Positions 54,071-63,105 of a DNA stretch of 64,000 nucleotides are shown here, one piece after another (position 1 is the first letter of the stretch; every line of letters starts with the position of its first letter). The stretch is from Tomocerus qinae. Lineage: Eukaryota; Arthropoda; Collembola; Entomobryomorpha; Tomoceridae. A program made the position numbers and the translations under genes. The stretch is from NCBI GenBank assembly GCA_020055645.1, contig CM034548.1, positions 47,670,296 to 47,734,295 of the forward strand. The letters are read 5' to 3'. The notes under the pieces are model-generated. The model had not been told where the DNA came from. It searched no databases and was given only the letters and a program-made list of their open reading frames with translations.

Positions 54071-54972
54071 TTTTTAGCTCGCCTGAATAGGCAGCTTATA
54101 GAATCGCACATTCCGTTCGTCCGTCCGTTTACACGATAACTTTTGAAGACATTGATGGATTTCAACTAAACTTGGCAAAAACATTGCCTATGAACCTGAG
54201 ACAAAGCCTATTGAAAATGAGCCACATTGGTCCATAGGTTCCTGAGATGCCGCGCGCTCACTTTGTCTTCATTTTGATAGTCAAAATGAAAATGTGGCAT
54301 TAAATGGACATTAAAAGTTCAATTGTGTTTCCTATGAATTGTTAGCTTAATGGTACAAAAATATTAATTGTCGCTTCGACAAAATTTAAAATTTTGATCT
54401 TCTTTTGATGTTTCTACTCCATATTACCTAATCAATTTTGATTTTTTGCTTATTTTAATTCTGAATATTAATCAATTTTGATTTTTTGTTTATTTTGATA
54501 CTCAATATTAGTCAATTTTGATTTTTTTGCTTATTCTATTACGATTTTTTGTTGTTTTTAATAGTCAATATTAATCTATTTTGATTTTGGGTTGATTTTA
54601 ATAGTCAATATTAATCTATTTTGATTTTGGGTTGATTTTAATAGTCAATATTAATCTATTTTGATTTTGTGTTGATTTTAATAGTCAATATTAATCTATT
54701 TTGATTTTGTGTTGATTTTAATAGTCAATATTAATCTATTTTGATTTTGTGTTGATTTTAATAGTCAATATTAATCTATTTTGATTTTGTGTTGATTTTA
54801 ATAGTCAATATTAATCTATTTTGATTTTGTGTTGATTTTAATAGTCAATATTAATCTATTTTGATTTTGTGTTGATTTTAATAGTCAATATTAATCTATT
54901 TTGATTTTGTGTTGATTTTAATAGTCAATATTAATCTAGTTTCAGGCGAGCTTCTGTTACGGTTTGCCGTAG
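54071..54972 (+). mobile_element. Non-autonomous Helentron (rolling-circle) copy, ~900 bp
   Basis: The 5' end is TTTTTAGCTCGCCTG, followed by a partner word giving an AGCTCGCCT/AGGCAGCT hairpin. The 3' end has TTTCAGGCGAGCT, the exact inverse of the 5' word, then a terminal hairpin TACGG-TTTG-CCGTA (54958-54971). Between them are a GTCCGTCCGTTT tract, ACGATAACTTTTGAA and a 40-bp tandem array. Subterminal inverted repeats, a short 3' hairpin and an internal minisatellite match Helentron-type elements (the Helitron2/INE-1 group). There is no coding frame. A second copy begins immediately after it, head to tail. Confidence 0.75.
54425..54940 (+). repeat. 40-bp minisatellite, copy 1
   Basis: From 54561 there are 9.5 almost identical 40-bp units (ATAGTCAATATTAATCTATT plus a TTGATTTTGTGTTGATTTTA half). 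Before 54561 the units are diverged (TCAATTTTGATTTTTTG). The first two regular units have GGG in place of GTG. Confidence 0.95.
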
Positions 54973-55018
54973 GTTTTAGCTCGCCTGAAAAAGGCAGCTT
55001 ATAGAACCACACAGTCTG

Positions 55019-55062
55019 TCCGTACGTCCGTCCGTCCGTACGTCCGTCCGTCCGTCGCCACG
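55019..55062 (+). repeat. GTCC/GTACGTCC tract in the Helentron leader
   Basis: A run of CCGT and ACGT units (CGTCCGTCCGTC repeated, with GTACG interruptions). The same tract in shorter form lies at 54114-54132 in the first copy. Such tracts are common just inside the 5' end of Helentron-type elements. Confidence 0.75.
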
Positions 55063-55320
55063 ATAACTTTCGAACACAAAGGCGGAAGTTGACCAAACTT
55101 GGCATAAACAATGCCTACGGACTGGTGACGAACCCTATTGATTTTGGTTTAAATCGGTCCATAAGTTGCTGAGATAACGCGCGCTCACTTTGTCTTTATT
55201 TTGATAGTCAAAGTCAAAAATGGACATAAAAAAATTAAATTGTGTTTCCTATAAATTGTTAGCGGGATAGTATAAAATATTCAACACCGCTTCTAACAAA
55301 CTTTAATTTTAATAAGTTGA

Positions 55321-56080
55321 ATTTAATAGTCAATATTAACCGATTTTGATTTTCTGTTGAATTTAATAGTCAATATTATCCGATTTTGATTTTCTGTTGA
55401 ATTCAATAGTCAATATTATCCGATTTTGATTTTCTGTTGAATCCAATAGTCAATATTATCCGATTTTGATTTTCTGTTGAATTTAATAGTCAATATTAAC
55501 CGATTTTGATTTTCTGTTGAATTTAATAGTCAATATTAACCGATTTTGATTTTCTGTTGAATTTAATAGTCAATATTATCCGATTTTGATTTTCTGTTGA
55601 ATTTAATAGTCAATATTATCCGATTTTGATTTTCTGTTGAATTCAATAGTCAATATTATCCGATTTTGATTTTCTGTTGAATTCAATAGTCAATATTAAC
55701 CGATTTAGATTTTATTTTGAATTGAATAGTCAATATTAACCGATTTTGCTTTTCTTTTGAATTCAATAGTCAATATTAACCGTTTTTGCTTTTCATTTGA
55801 ATTTAACAGTCAATTTTAACCGATTTTGCTTTTCTTTTGAATTTAATAGTCAATTTTAACCGATATTGATTTTCTTTAGAATTTAATACTCATATTTTTT
55901 TAAATTTTATTTTCTGTTTTGGTTTTGATAATCATTTTCTATTTTTGTTTCGAATTGATTTAAGTTGATGTTAATATATTTTAATATTCTAATTCACTGA
56001 TCTTGATAGTCAGAATTAATATATTTTGATTTTGTCTCGATTTTGATAGTCACCATTAATTTATTTTAATTAAGGGTTTT
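55321..56080 (+). repeat. 40-bp minisatellite, copy 2
   Basis: Fourteen 40-bp units at 55321-55880 (ATTTAATAGTCAATATTAAC plus CGATTTTGATTTTCTGTTGA). Single-base variants (AAC or ATC, ATTT or ATTC) mark subfamilies. The last four units are diverged, and decayed units can be traced to about 56080. The unit is clearly related to that of the first copy but has its own consensus. Confidence 0.95.
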
Positions 56081-56642
56081 TACGATTTTAAAACCCATTT
56101 TTATGTTTCCACGACCAGGATTCTCGGGAAAGCTAATTTTATAGTCTAGATCATGTCACGTGAATTGGTAACCCTGACTCTTAATAGTAATTTTTGGTCA
56201 AATGGAGAAGCTATTGAACAACATACAAAATGTTTAAATTTTATTCTAGCTTGTACTTTTTATATTTATCATGGTAACGTAGGCCATGTTTATCACAGCT
56301 TTTTGGAAATAATCTGCAATGTTATTTTTGCAGTTTTGTCATTCGTTTGTCAAAATCGTGCGAATAAGGTGCTCAGAATTCTTACTTGTCATTTGAAATC
56401 GATTTACTTGATACAATCACTAGCTGCTTGACGGGTTGCAGATCTTTTGCTATTCGGTTTCGAACAATCTATTCAGAAGCTGCTTTATCCTAATCAATAG
56501 CAACAAATTTAAAGCCAAACGGTTACACCTGTGACTTGAAGTGAAGTTTCGTTCTGTTTTTATCATATTTTGATTTAATTGTGTTGATATAACTTTTTTT
56601 GTTTGTTTCCATTATTTAACTTTTCTTACCACTCATTTCGCC

Positions 56643-57384
56643 ATGCCGAAAACTAAAAAAATTGGTGAAAAAGCTAAGAAACTCCATAAAAAAGATTTTA
56701 GAAGGCAACAAAGACTTGATCCCGCACATTTGGAGGATGAACGCAAACGTGACGCTGATAGAAAAACCATATTAAGAAAAAATGAAGACTTTTTGGAAAA
56801 CGAAAGGAAGCGTGACGCGGAAAGGAAAGCTGCTCTGCGACAAAATGAAGAGTTTTTGGAAGAAGAAAGGAAGATTGATATTGGGAGAAAGGCCAAAATG
56901 CGTGAGAATGAAGAATTTTTAAAAGAAGAGAGGAAAAGAACCAATGACAGATTAAAGGCATATCGAACAGATGAAAAGTTTTTGGAAGAAGAAAAGAAGC
57001 GTGATGTTGAAAGAAAGGCCACGCTTCGACAAAACGAAGAATTTTTGGAAGAAGAGAGGCAAAGAACTAACAATAGATTAAAGACTTATCGAAAGGATAA
57101 AGAGTTTTTGGAGGAAGAAAGAAAGCGTGATGGTAAACGTAAAGTTAATAAAAGGAAGGATCCCGATTTTAAAAAACAGGAGCAAACAAAAAATAAAGAC
57201 TGGAAAAAGGCAAAGCGTAATCCAGACAATTGGAATGAATGTAGCGAAAATTTTATTAATAACATAAAATATGGACCAGTTTATATTTGTTGTTGTTGCA
57301 ACGGCCTGTGGTTTCCAGATTCTATTCGCAGGTTGAACATGGACAATCTAAAATCCAAAGGACTTAAGGAAGACTTTTTGACAA
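56643..57384 (+). pseudogene. Helentron protein, N-terminal repeats and zinc-finger-like segment
   Basis: Starts with ATG at 56643 in a good context (GCCATGCC). Residues 27-173 are seven tandem 21-residue repeats with the pattern EEFLEEERKRDxxRKxxxRxN, highly charged and surely helical; the nucleotide repeat is 63 bp. Next comes a Lys-rich stretch and GPVYICCCCNGLWF, the Cys-rich segment found before the Rep domain in Helitron proteins. The frame is open to 57473, but after about 57384 the family sequence continues in the next frame (VIADENEKVCFTC), so one extra base lies in or near CAAGAAG at 57382-57388. Probable nuclear and DNA-binding role. Confidence 0.8.
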
Positions 57385-58968
57385 GAAGTTATTGCAGACG
57401 AAAACGAGAAAGTATGCTTTACTTGTTGGATTGGAATCAACAATGGGAAAATTCCAAAACTGGCAGCTTTTAATGGATTCGCTTACGTAGATGTCCCAGA
57501 TGTACTAAAAGGTTTGACGCAATTAGAGGAACGGCTATGTGCTTTACGTCTACCATTTATGCAAATTCGAAATTTAGGAGTTGGTAACCAGTATGGACTA
57601 AAAGGCAATGTTATCAATATTTTAAATACAATTGAAGAAACGGCAAAAGTTCTTCCTAGAAAATTTAATGAAACCAGTGTAATTCAATTACAATTGATGA
57701 GGCGTAGGTGTTATAAAAATCCTTATATGTTCGAGACAATTAGACCTGCAAAGGTCTATACTGCCTGTAAATACTTATGTACCACCGAAATTTACTTAGA
57801 AGAACAAGTTACCTTGTCAGAAGATTGGGAAAATAGACTAACCTCTGATATAGTAGATTTCATTGTTGATGAAAGTGACAAGACAAATAAAATGGATGAA
57901 AATGGCAAATTGGACGAAGAAAATCAGGAAGAAGAGGAACTGAATCCAGGAGGAAACGAGACTCTTCTATACAATATTGATGAAATAAATGGAAATCAAG
58001 CAAAAAGTTACGCACCTGGAGAAAATAAAAGACCACTTTCATTGATCAACGACATGAATGCTGAGGAACTAGCATTTCCAACTATTTATTGCGGACAGAA
58101 GAGGAAATTCAAGATAAAACCAAGCTATGGAGAGATAGCCAAATCAGAAGCTAGGAGGTCCGATCGGAGGGGTTGTATACCAGTAAAATTATTATATTCT
58201 TTTAAAGTATTACAAACTCATCAAGTGTCTAACTTAATTTCTATTTGTCTTCGAAAAAAGAAGTGCGGTACTATTACAGCTGCTGAAATGAAGTCGAATG
58301 AATATGTCAATAACTTGGTACAACATGACGATGGATATCGTATGCTGAAACAAATCAGATCATCTCCTGCATACTGGGAACATAAACAAAATAATTTAAT
58401 GGCAATGATTCGTCAATTGGGTATTCCAACTTTTTTCATAACTTTGTCTGCAGCAGAAACGCATTGGCCTGAACTGATAGTGATACTCAGTCTAGTTTTG
58501 GACCAACTGGTTATTACCGAAGAGAAAGCTGCTGCCCTACCATACCAAAAAAAGGCGGACTTAATTCGAAGAGATCCTATAACTTGTGCAAGATATTTTG
58601 ATTGGCGTCTGAGACAATGGAAGAAGTACATTTTATTATCCCCTGGTGGCGCTTTTTCTGGGTACTTGGTAAAGGACTTCTTCTACCGCATAGAATTTCA
58701 GCATAGAGGTTCACCTCATATGCACGGACTATTCTGGTTGGAAGGGTCTCCAAAATTCAATGATATGGGTGGCACTGAAATTAACGGAGATTGTATTTCT
58801 TTTATTGATCAGTTTATTCAGTGTCAAGCAGATGTCGACGCCGTCATCCATCAAGGTCACAAGCATACCATAACTTGTGAAAGGAAAACAAAAACTGGAG
58901 TAATTTGTAGGTTCGGTATGCCTTATTTCCCATTGAAGGAAACTAATATTTTTTTGCCTTTACCTTAA
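57385..58968 (+). pseudogene. Helentron protein, Rep (HUH nuclease) part
   Basis: Begins with a CxxC (KVCFTC) then IPKLAAFNGF and LTQLEERLCALRLPFMQIRN, standard for the Helitron N-terminal region. The Helitron-like Rep domain follows: IPTFFITLSAAETHWPEL (motif 1) and the metal-binding HUH motif HMH (58717-58725) in EFQHRGSPHMHGLFWL. KHTITCERKT plus CRFGMPYFP is the Cys/His segment after it. The Rep nicks one strand and joins to the 5' end during rolling-circle transposition. A TAA at 58966-58968 interrupts it, and the same frame resumes at once (DVPKNIRQN). The stop replaces what is likely a Glu codon. Confidence 0.85.
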
Positions 58969-61269
58969 GATGTACCTAAAAATATAAGACAAAATTTAAC
59001 TAAAACTGCTATTACTATAAAAGAGTTATTGACAAAAATGCACAAAGACAAATTAAATATTAATATTTCATATGACGACTTTCTTTCCCTTTGTAAATTA
59101 GACGAAAAGACTTATTTGATGTGTATTAGAAATTCCATTAAAAGACCAACAGTGTTTTTAAAGCGGAATGTGGATTCCGTCTTCGAAAACGCTTACAATT
59201 TAAAAATGGCTTCTTTATGGAGGTCTAATATGGATATTCAGTTTATTTTGGACCCTTATGCTTGTGCTAAATACTGTGTGTCCTATATTTCTAAATCATG
59301 TCGCGGGATGTCGAAATTACTCAAAGCTGTGGTAGATGATGTGAACTACGGTAATTCTACCATTCAACAGAAGCTGCGAAAGGTAGCCAGCGTGTTTCTG
59401 AATTCCACAGAGGTGTCGGCACAAGAGGCTGCATATACTATTCTATGTATTCCTCTCAGTATGTGCAGTAGAAGTACAGCCTTTATTTCAACTGGTGAAA
59501 GAGAACAGAGAGTGAGATTCGCTAAATCAATGGAAGAATTGGATAAGTTGAATCCTGATTCTACAGATGTACTGATTCCTGGTTTGTTGGAACATTACTG
59601 TCAAAGACCTACCAATTTGGAGTATTTATGCCTGGCTGATTTTGCGGCATATTACACGTTTTCGAAAAGCAAACGAGCTGGTGTACGGAAGGAATCGAAT
59701 TTTGAGAATAATAACGAAGATGACAATGAACAATCAGAAGATGAGGAGGACACTGCGACAGTTCTGAAACTGCAAGATAATTCTGGTTATATCACAAAAA
59801 GGAAGAAGCCGAAGGTGATAAGATATAGAAGATACAATAAATATCAAGATGAGGAAAACTACTACCGGGAACAAGTAATGTTATATCTACCTTGGAGGGA
59901 TGAAGAGAAAGAGTTGATCTCAGTTGACATAAAGAATCTGTATACCCTAAATTCGCAAACGATTGGAAGTAAGAGAAGCGAATACGAAAAGCAAGCAAAT
60001 ATTGAAGATATGGATTTGGACGATATAGAAGACGAGAGCAGCGAAGACGACTACCATATGGAAGGCCAAATGGAAAGTGTAATCCTGGACATACCTTGCG
60101 GTAACATGGTAAATAATAATGGTGATTTTACTGATGAGAAAGACAGGATAAAGGTATTTAATATTCCCAATGTTTTACCAAATGAAGACTTTGTTGCTTT
60201 AATGAGATCGTTGAACAAAGAACAAAGAAGGTTCATGTACCACAGGCTTAACTGTTTAAAGATCAACGAAAATCCTTCTTATGAGTTTGTGACAGGTGGT
60301 GCCGGTACTGGTAAAAGTCATTTGATCAAAGCCATAGTACAATCCTCTTTGCGATATCTCAATTCCCTACCTGGAGCTACCCCGGATACGGTAAAAATTT
60401 TATTGTGCGCACCTACAGGTAAGGCCGCGTACAATATAAAAGGAAGTACTTTACATGAAACATTCTGTTTGCCATTAAGTCAATTTACTAAACAAATACC
60501 AAAGTTAACGCATGATTTTTGCAATACTCTTTATTGTAAATTAAGAGACCTTAAATTAGTAATCATTGATGAAGTATCAATGGTAAGTTTGAATATGTTC
60601 ATTCAAATAGACAATAGACTTAAACAAATATTTACAAATAACAAATTATTTGGAGGCATAAGTGTTTTATTAGTTGGCGACTTTCATCAATTTAAGCCAG
60701 TTGGTGGAAAATATATATTTGATAAATTAAAAGATCTACAGGCTATATCTGGGAATTTGTTTTGGGAGCCATTCAAACTTTTTGAACTCTCGGAAGTTAT
60801 GCGTCAAAAAGATGACCTACGGTTTGCAAACGCTTTGAACAGGATGTCAATAGGAAAAATGCTCGAAGAAGATATTGTGCTATTCAAGGATAGGGAAATC
60901 AAAGACCCCAAAATAATCCCTCAAGAAGCTGTGCATCTTTACTATGATAATCAAAGTGTCAAAATTTACAATCAAAACGTTTTGGAGAAAATGGTGTCTG
61001 AAGGAATAATCTCAACTGCAAGGGACAAATGCCAAGGAAAAAGTCAAAAGGATAAAGAGGCCATTCTGGAAAGTGCACGGAATTTAAACGTTCGTGAGAG
61101 CCAAGGATTACCCTATGAATTGCTGTTGAAGATCAACGCCAAATATATGATGACAATAAATGTTAACACACGGGATGGATTGGTTAATGGAGCTTCAGGA
61201 ATTTTGAAACAAATTATATATGGAAATTTAACAAATGGTCAAAAAATTCCTATGATAGCTTTAATTTAA
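58969..61269 (+). pseudogene. Helentron protein, Rep tyrosines and PIF1-type helicase
   Basis: The Rep two-tyrosine motif is AKYCVSYISK, with tyrosine codons at 59272-59274 and 59284-59286. An acid-rich linker follows (EDDNEQSEDEED, DMDLDDIEDESSEDD). The superfamily 1 helicase begins near 60200: Walker A GGAGTGKS (60295-60318), CAPTGKAA, Walker B VIIDEVSM near 60562-60585, LLVGDFHQFKPVGG and LSEVMRQKDDLRF. It unwinds DNA from the nicked strand. The frame is stopped by TAA at 61267-61269 within ALI-stop-FDSREVG, where relatives have an Ile-Lys-Phe-Asp-type motif, so an AAA to TAA change is likely. Translation continues in the same frame beyond. Confidence 0.88.
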
Positions 61270-63105
61270 TTTGATTCAAGGGAAGTTGGTCAAGAATGCA
61301 GAGCGGCGAACAACAAAATACCTAATATTTTGGAAAAGAACTGGACTCCGGTAAAGACGGTAAATAAAATCATCAAGAATTGGCCAGGAAGGGATATACA
61401 GGTTGTAAGAAGCCAATTTCCCTTGGTACCTGCTGAAGCTATTACCATGCACAAATCTCAAGGAGGAACTTATGAATCTGTAGCAGTCCATTTACGAAAG
61501 GGATTAACAAGAGCTGCTTTGTATGTCGCCTGTAGTAGAGCAACTAAATTATCTGGACTGTATTTGGAAGGACAATTTACTGCTCCGATGCCTGCTTCAG
61601 GTTTTGATATAGTTGAATTGGAAATGAGTAGGTTGAGGGAAAAAAGAGTAGCTTTTAACTATCCTTTACCCGATAAATTGTCAAAGTCAACGATTACAGT
61701 GTTGTTTCACAACATCCAAAGTTTGAACAGTCACTTTGATGATATCAAAGTCGACGACCAATATCAAAACTTGGATGCTTTGCTTTTTTGTGAATCTTGG
61801 ACCCTTGATACTGATAAATTCTCAATGCCTAACTATTCCCTTATAAATAAAATGGACTGCTGTAGTTCAGTAAGGAAGCCACATGGGCTTTATGCGCTTA
61901 AAAATAACTTATCTTCCCACTCCATTAGAAAAACAGAAATGTTCAGTAAATCGTTTATAGGAGGGTTGGTTGAGTTTGGCTTGATGACTATTGAAAAAGT
62001 TGATATCCTTTATGGGTATAAATCGCCAAAGGTTGTTGTCACCGAATTCCTATCCTTCTTAAATGATATACTACAAAAATATTTTATTGGGCAGATGTTG
62101 ATAGTAGTTGGGGATTTTAACATTGACCTCACAAAATCCTGTTGTTCGGAATTTGTGAAGTTAATGAGCGCTTTTAATCTAAGTTTGAAGTTTAAAATCG
62201 GCCAATATTCGACAAATAGTAATTCCCAAATTGATATTTGCTTTAGTAATATCTCAGAATTGAATTGCTGGTATGCGGAAAGCTATTTCAGTCATCATAA
62301 GCCTATAATGATGTCCTGGGCGATTGATAATAGTATGCTTATGATTGATGACCTAAAGAAACTGTCAGTCAATGATTTGGTTGATGTCAAGGTTGATGCC
62401 ATTGAGATGACTGACTGCAGTATCAGCAAATCTTCTAAAATTATTCCACAGCCAATAGAAGTTGAGTATGACGCAATTGTTTTTAGATTTGGGAACTATG
62501 TAGGCAGTAGAAATTCTATAGCTACTTTGCATGAAGGGCAGTGGCTAGACGATTTAGTGATCAATGCCTATGCCAAGTACTTATTGACTTCCATAAACAC
62601 TGCCAACAACTATGTATTAGATAGTTATTTCTTTTACCGCGGTCAAAACGGGTGTTATCAAGCTGTGGAAGAAATGTTTCCTGATTATCTAATACGAAAT
62701 ATAGATAAATTACGAAATTCCACTATATACCTACCTTCAAACCACATTGACCATTGGTTCCTTATTAAAATCAATTTTGACCCTTTTATATTAACAGTTA
62801 TGGATTCTTTACCCGGTCATGTTAATATTGATGAACATTTGTCCCATTTAAAAAATGTTATGCATTCCGTTCTTGGTATTTTACCAGAATGTTGGCAAAA
62901 TAATTTAATTTTCAGCCACCCTATTCAGATTAATGGGTATGATTGTGGTTGTTTCCTTCTAAAATTATTGGAACAATCTTTAAGTGGTTTAAATGTTTCA
63001 GATGTCAACGCTCAATCGATTTATAATTTCAGAGAGCAGATTTTCCAGATTTTGCTAAATAGCACTGTGTCTGGGCAGTTGCTCCTTAACCAATTAAATT
63101 TGTAA
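61270..63105 (+). pseudogene. Helentron protein, helicase end, endonuclease and Ulp1 protease
   Basis: Starts FDSREVGQECR and contains helicase motifs V and VI, ITMHKSQGGTYES and ALYVACSRATKLSG. From about 61680 there is an endonuclease of the exonuclease-endonuclease-phosphatase fold: VLFHNIQSLNSHFDDI, LLFCESW, VVGDFNIDL (62107-62121) and SHHKPIMMSW. This LINE-like endonuclease is the mark of Helentrons. From about 62460 comes a Ulp1/SENP-like (C48) cysteine protease: GQWLDDLVINAYAKYLL, then HW (His codon 62752-62754), MDSL (Asp 62803-62805), PIQINGYDCGCF (Gln 62926-62928, Cys 62944-62946). All four active-site residues are present. The frame ends TAA at 63103-63105. The protease could cleave SUMO- or ubiquitin-like modifiers or process the polyprotein; this is inference. 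Confidence 0.85.

Follow-up and report, generated by a model that had tools for sequence, protein, structure and literature searches.

Helentrons bearing deubiquitinases of the OTU type or of the herpes tegument-like VTD type have been described (PMC9741609, PMC4067079) and, as these sources present them, they combine Rep, helicase and endonuclease with a ubiquitin-family cysteine protease. The element considered here has the same overall composition, but its protease is of the C48 (Ulp1/SENP) type and follows the endonuclease as the very last domain of the protein. It is encoded by a damaged gene at positions 56643-63105 (+ strand) of a 64,000-nucleotide stretch of the genome of the collembolan Tomocerus qinae (C3:47670296-47734295, hereafter "the window"). 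In the account given in PMC9741609, VTDs from zebrafish Helitrons reacted with ubiquitin, and two of the three with NEDD8 as well, whereas SUMO and ISG15 probes gave no reaction; inactive VTDs are reported from insects, and the protease of the VTD Helitrons is proposed to keep proteins on which transposition depends from being lost to the proteasome.

Ulp1/C48 domains are also known from Ginger, Mutator, Crypton and CACTA elements (PMC2836005, PMC3212892, PMC2528002, PMC8978399). Ginger1, as described in PMC2836005, is similar to the window element in being a DNA transposon whose transposition enzyme ends in a fused Ulp1 domain, but this enzyme is a DDE transposase rather than an HUH Rep-helicase-endonuclease protein; according to the same source, any one Ginger1 bears OTU or Ulp1, not both. 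Mutator-like elements (KAONASHI and others), Cryptons and CACTA elements likewise carry C48 but belong to other transposon classes (PMC13317346, PMC3212892, PMC2528002, PMC8978399), and in some Cryptons the domain is reported to reside in an additional protein. An earlier reading of the window, made from its letters alone (the sequence-only reading), had called a Ulp1 fusion unusual. That word has to be qualified, given the published Helentrons with OTU or VTD and the other transposons with Ulp1/C48. No Helentron or Helitron with Ulp1 was found in searches of an open-access library (Repbase and most subscription journals lay outside the search, and priority is not established).

The window gene and its domains

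The gene encodes, in order, a repeat-rich N-terminus, a DUF6570 region, a Rep domain (HUH, two tyrosines), a PIF1 helicase, an endonuclease and a Peptidase_C48 domain, and it contains one frameshift and two in-frame stops. The sequence-only reading had described a Helentron with Rep, helicase, endonuclease and protease in this order and with three lesions, and was right on both counts: the domains were recovered with Pfam, run on each open reading frame (ORF) piece separately, and the endonuclease by alignment. Four pieces are listed: 56574-57473, in another frame, then 57382-58968, 58969-61269 and 61270-63105, which share one frame and are parted by TAA stops; the switch of frame between the first two lies near 57380-57390. 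The features are as follows.

56643..57385, + strand: N-terminal piece, starting with MPKT at the first ATG (56643), with E/K/R-rich repeats at about 56729-57132 and a Cys cluster from 57288 (ORF listing, DNA reading)
57442..57825, + strand: DUF6570 (Pfam, 5.1e-19)
58273..58731, + strand: Rep domain, Helitron_like_N (Pfam, 1.9e-26)
58696-58725, + strand: HUH motif FQHRGSPHMH within Rep (read from the sequence)
58966..58968, + strand: in-frame stop TAA, a lesion; other genomic copies exist without a stop there (ORF listing)
59251..59298, + strand: two-tyrosine Rep motif DPYACAKYCVSYISKS (read from the sequence)
60211..60834, + strand: N-terminal part of the PIF1-type helicase, with Walker A GAGTGK (Pfam, 1e-27)
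61267..61269, + strand: in-frame stop TAA, a lesion (ORF listing)
61432..61560, + strand: C-terminal part of the helicase, UvrD_C_2-like (Pfam, 9.5e-6; 25.8 bits, below the cut-off of 27.4)
61680..62325, + strand: Helentron endonuclease of the endonuclease/exonuclease/phosphatase type (family-A row aligned with L015, L018-L021 and L028)
62326..62475, + strand: unconserved linker between endonuclease and protease (identity by region between families A and B)
62476..63070, + strand: Peptidase_C48 (Ulp1/SENP) domain (Pfam, 1e-8; PDB matches to SENPs and Ulp1)
63103..63105, + strand: terminal stop of the reading frame (ORF listing)

An HUH Rep with two tyrosines and a PIF1 helicase occur in one protein (Pfam), and the motifs RGSPHMH and AKYCVSY are common to the two copy families, A and B, described below; a two-tyrosine motif like that of the window is also present in L015, L018, L019, L021 and L028 (loci in the genome are numbered L, contigs C). 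Rep motif 2 is of the Helentron type, in that Ser separates Gly from Pro and is preceded by F/Y-x-R (FYRIEFQHRGSPHMH in L015 and L010), which is the diagnostic rule given for Helentrons in PMC4067079. Judged from protein features alone, including this motif, the element is thus a Helentron; its ends were not found, the copies passing into tandem arrays of 40-bp and 182-bp units.

For the window endonuclease, Pfam returned nothing at E-values up to 1. Exo_endo_phos_2 is recognized below its cut-off in L015 (8.3e-4) and above it in a related Helentron, L018 (4.5e-7). This part of the window gene is called an endonuclease because the family-A row (L010) aligns along its full length with the endonucleases of L015, L018-L021 and L028, which include the one in which Pfam sees the domain. 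An S-D-H motif is usual in related endonucleases; here, the motif Asp is missing from all six fetched Helentron rows reaching the motif (L010, L015, L018-L021), which have S-H-H, S-R-H or S-Y-H instead (window 62290-62305).

The Peptidase_C48 domain scores well above its Pfam cut-off of 20.7 bits in the window (35.7), L015 (33.8) and L010 (35.6). The catalytic residues, which the sequence-only reading had placed in the order His, Asp, Gln, Cys, are encoded in this order at 62752-62754, 62803-62805, 62926-62928 and 62944-62946. The H-to-D and Q-to-C spacings are 17 and 6 residues, respectively, the same as in yeast Ulp1. Searched against PDB sequences, the window domain matched SENP2 (4.4e-9) and also SENP1, SENP5 and Ulp1.

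Copies of the fusion and selection on the protease

The genome (334 Mb, 115 contigs) was searched with the last ORF piece of the window, giving at least 69 matches (72 of 150 candidates were scored). Family A consists of the window and six copies (L009-L014), which match it at 94-96% in their main piece. Two of these, L009 and L014, agree at 99% through all the sequence that was compared on either side, and may not be independent insertions; another, L012, seems to have been split, the fragment L027 lying 12 kb away. Three family-B copies reach C48: L015, with 58% identity over the whole piece, and L016 and L017, with 45-70% depending on the part. L015 is a single open frame of 2197 residues with every domain present, although even this copy may be imperfect, because its final few residues, past the protease core, differ from those of L016 and L017. 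A third family is represented only by a remnant, L026.

The sequence-only reading had left it to other copies to show whether the protease is always fused. C48 is present, whole or damaged, in L026 and in all 10 A and B copies reaching it (the window, six further A copies and three B copies); as sister copies carry it, the domain belongs to the transposon as a conserved component and is no accident of one copy. Only L015 of these 10 has an unbroken frame, and C48 itself is damaged by one stop in L011, by truncation and a changed Asp in L012 and by a frameshift in L013; it is also damaged in L026. The His, Asp, Gln and Cys are kept in all seven copies with an unbroken C48 (the window, L009, L010, L014, L015, L016 and L017), two of which, L009 and L014, are almost identical. 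A search of the genome with the family-B protease returned the same set, after which identity fell to 22-29%. The simplest inference is that C48 was acquired before A and B split.

Two family-B fragments do not test the fusion, since both end before C48. At position 66300361 of C2 there is a Rep match that agrees with L015 at 100% over 200 residues and has no C48 match; it was rejected as a counter-example, because the DNA of this locus (L045), 99% identical to L015, is a 5' fragment that stops inside Rep. The other lies on C10 (201851-203922), where the match covers no more than Rep and the start of the helicase. As a separate observation, divergence between the window and L010 is uneven, with a dS (synonymous divergence) of 0.50 in the DUF6570 region (57382-58100) and 0.03 in the endonuclease and C48 (61680-63070), a pattern that suggests exchange among the lineages of family A, by recombination or gene conversion.

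Selection, proposed in the sequence-only reading as a check on the protease, was estimated by the Nei-Gojobori method with 200 codon bootstraps and with a pairwise codon model, and the two agree between families. For C48, omega (dN/dS) between A and B was 0.135-0.166 in three pairs (twice the log-likelihood difference from omega 1, 2dlnL, 48-57), values that are approximate because synonymous sites are near saturation. The domain is therefore under purifying selection between the families. The ratio of nonsynonymous to synonymous proportions (pN/pS) was 0.37-0.41 in five A-B pairs, with upper bounds of 0.47-0.55, excluding neutrality. Omega was lower elsewhere in the protein, at 0.085-0.119 in the endonuclease and 0.04-0.05 in Rep and the helicase. 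Within families, constraint on C48 was also detected between the window and L009 (omega 0.18, 2dlnL 13.2) and between L016 and L017 (pN/pS 0.17, 0.06-0.39). Identity between A and B is 65% in the endonuclease, 21% in the 52-residue linker and 54% in C48, about 46-48% of the C48 residues having changed. A constrained C48 after a freely drifting linker is the pattern expected of a functional fused domain. A chance join or one-copy artefact is rejected by the six further A copies, the second family and the selection on C48. Domestication as a single host gene is unsupported, as the copies lie on contigs C1, C2, C3, C5, C7 and C9, mostly with broken frames.

More distant Helentrons in this genome (about 33% identity) lack the protease. 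Their match stops at the end of the endonuclease; at least 16 places match from residue 6-19 to 347-356 of the query, and the nearest listed C48 match to any of these 16 is 166 kb away. The C48 profile found nothing at E-values up to 1 in five fetched distant loci (L018-L021 and L028), four of which have a frame ending a few residues past the endonuclease, L028 being broken inside the endonuclease. In a position comparison that took in 32 of the 69 query matches, 31 Rep matches had a helicase-endonuclease match within 10 kb downstream and seven of these also had a C48 match there (counts are Rep rows, and some elements give two). All seven belong to A or B, and two further rows of the 31 are the A copies with damaged C48, L012 and L013, which the list of C48 matches does not contain. 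C48 therefore marks one Helentron clade in this genome. No OTU or VTD match (E-value up to 0.01) was found within 10 kb of the 96 Rep matches in the genome, one overlapping OTU row having been left out. A single match to a herpes tegument-type protease profile (8.1e-7, in a 342-residue frame) was noted at C87:12751-13275, on a contig with no listed Rep match.

The sequence-only reading had also named a better alignment of the domain to a host SENP gene with introns as a point that would count against it. Four host SENP-like genes, named by eye (L031, L040, L036 and L039), share the peptidase family and catalytic order with the Helentron domain; the first three match C48 in separate exons, and L039 (SENP8-like) matches in one piece. 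The best relatives outside the Helentrons in this genome are the C48s of another transposon-like ORF (L022 and L024), and host SENPs are among the weakest matches. In a tree of 19 C48 rows from the genome, the Helentron sequences form their own clade (support 97/98), sharing one half with the C48s of a transposon-like ORF and the SENP6/7-like host sequence L036, with the other three host sequences in the opposite half; the tree is flagged for long branches. Recent capture of a host SENP is thus unsupported, any deeper origin being blurred by the long branches.

Possible activity of the protease

The element is probably best understood as one of a Helentron subfamily with a catalytically complete C-terminal Ulp1/SENP protease, which would most likely act as a SUMO-type isopeptidase at transposon DNA. 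A five-sequence C48 profile (A1), compared with solved structures, gave SENP2, SENP5, SENP1 and Ulp1 as its best matches; 16 of the 18 structure sequences matched at E-values up to 0.01 are SENP1, 2, 3, 5, 7 or yeast Ulp1, and the remaining two are another Ulp1-like SUMO protease and, as the weakest match, one other protein. The removal of SUMO-type tags proposed in the sequence-only reading fits these relatives, the role itself being predicted from sequence likeness. Several points weigh against this view. The likeness to SENPs cannot settle whether the substrate tag would be SUMO, NEDD8 or ubiquitin, and a single-sequence AlphaFold model of the window domain was unusable, with a predicted local distance difference test score (pLDDT) of 33. 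The A-B omega values are approximate, as noted above, and the near identity of L009 and L014 means that the seven unbroken copies are not seven independent tests. Within families, omega for C48 was 0.47 between L015 and L016, not distinct from 1 (2dlnL 1.9), and the values for the window and L010 (0.66), the window and L011 (0.70) and L010 and L011 (0.46) have bounds that include 1, with few changes; copies may drift after insertion, with few changes per pair. Only one genome was examined, and three scans of viral contigs (with the window C48, alignment A1 and P0001) found no relative.

In a possible mechanism for the predicted SUMO protease, the Rep-helicase would initiate rolling-circle replication at the transposon end, carrying the protease along. 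Rep would hold the protease beside the transposon DNA, where SUMO or SUMO-like tags could be stripped from proteins of the host or of the transposon at the site of replication; silencing proteins, repair proteins and the transposon protein itself are candidate substrates. As an outcome, the transposition complex would be less subject to silencing, arrest or turnover. This model carries over to SUMO the proposal made for VTD Helitrons, as set out in PMC9741609, and, by analogy, C48 may take the place of the OTU and VTD deubiquitinases of other Helentrons (PMC9741609).

C48 domains from other sources can be deubiquitinases, and the same element could carry a deubiquitinase or deneddylase. The reactivity of the zebrafish Helitron VTDs with ubiquitin (and, for two of the three, NEDD8) but not SUMO offers a precedent (PMC9741609). 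This is nevertheless unlikely: VTD belongs to a family other than C48, SUMO proteases are the closest among the solved structures, and no SENP8 (NEDD8 protease) is named among the 18 structures matched by the profile at E-values up to 0.01.

A terminal protease is found in some viral polyproteins, and Ulp1-type enzymes cleave after Gly-Gly. The protease might, as the sequence-only reading also suggested, cut its own polyprotein, releasing the Rep-helicase, the endonuclease and itself. The product is very long (2197 residues in L015), the protease is terminal, and conserved Gly-Gly pairs lie at L015 residues 495 (between the DUF6570 and Rep matches) and 768 (just past the Rep match). However, of the seven Gly-Gly pairs that A and B have in common, six lie in or beside Rep, the helicase or the endonuclease, and neither the linker leading to C48 nor the acidic one ahead of the helicase contains any of the seven, so self-processing is less likely. 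L018, a Helentron without C48, has its Rep, helicase and endonuclease arranged in this same way. We consider self-cleavage improbable.

It is very improbable that C48 is a functionless passenger, derived from a host or another transposon and joined by chance. The broken window copy, the damage to C48 in L011, L012, L013 and L026, its faster change than in Rep and the helicase (omega 0.14-0.17 versus 0.04-0.05 between families) and the within-family omegas often not distinct from 1 would all suit a passenger, but this is largely refuted by purifying selection across families in which nearly half the C48 residues have changed, and catalytic residues are retained in every unbroken copy next to a drifted linker. 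A non-catalytic docking module, with a SUMO-binding fold recruiting the protein to SUMO-rich nuclear sites, has a parallel in the inactive insect VTDs (PMC9741609) but is highly unlikely, given the four intact catalytic residues in all seven unbroken copies.

Returning to the predicted SUMO protease, the OTU, VTD and C48 Helentrons together suggest repeated recruitment of one kind of activity. A tentative extension, which we hold to be somewhat doubtful, is that this uptake of three ubiquitin-family proteases (OTU, VTD and Ulp1/SENP) reflects a general need for SUMO or ubiquitin removal in endonuclease-bearing rolling-circle transposition, this lineage being the first with a built-in SUMO protease. 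The host factors restraining or helping rolling-circle transposons are, in our judgement, poorly known; a protease that selection has maintained within the transposition protein, and whose substrates are probably of a known class, suggests that SUMO or a related tag is one such factor, and the domain provides a biochemical handle.

Repeats and other C48-bearing sequences

One further feature, a set of arrays, lies upstream of the window gene; several other copies, L015 among them, have related arrays on their 5' side.

54429..55896, no strand assigned: 40-bp minisatellite arrays

Tandem arrays of a 182-bp unit, varying in length, follow the 3' part in five A copies, and to the right of the window end they begin at base 418 of L029. 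They were seen at L029, L009, L011, L013, L014 and L030, are absent from L015 and L016, and in L010 are matched only weakly. Beyond the 182-bp array, L013 and L030 have a second repeat, estimated from match offsets at about 172 bp. The last 200 bases of L011 contain a hairpin, GGCCCTTAAAAGGGCC, just to the right of the satellite array; this hairpin resembles the 3' stem-loop of histone mRNA. Satellite-carrying non-autonomous Helentrons described from oyster (PMC7492417) provide a comparison for the 182-bp arrays.

Other C48 sequences also occur in the genome. Multi-copy ORFs of 214-421 residues, often two in tandem and not close to Helitron Rep matches, were found at L032 (C1:128863400-128865600), L033, L034 and L037, on C21 and at C1:18.0 Mb; in some of them the active site has Asn in place of Asp, or reads EC where DC is usual. 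The other transposon-like ORF, of up to 595 residues, with the motif HHTNNAVESYFSNTKNQL and a C-terminal C48, was seen at L022-L025, L038, L042 and L043 and appears Mutator-like by eye; in L022, the only such locus run against Pfam, the three ORFs gave no match except C48. L044 (C1:36.67 Mb) is a long nuclear copy of mitochondrial DNA, with COX1 open in the invertebrate code and ND2 upstream.

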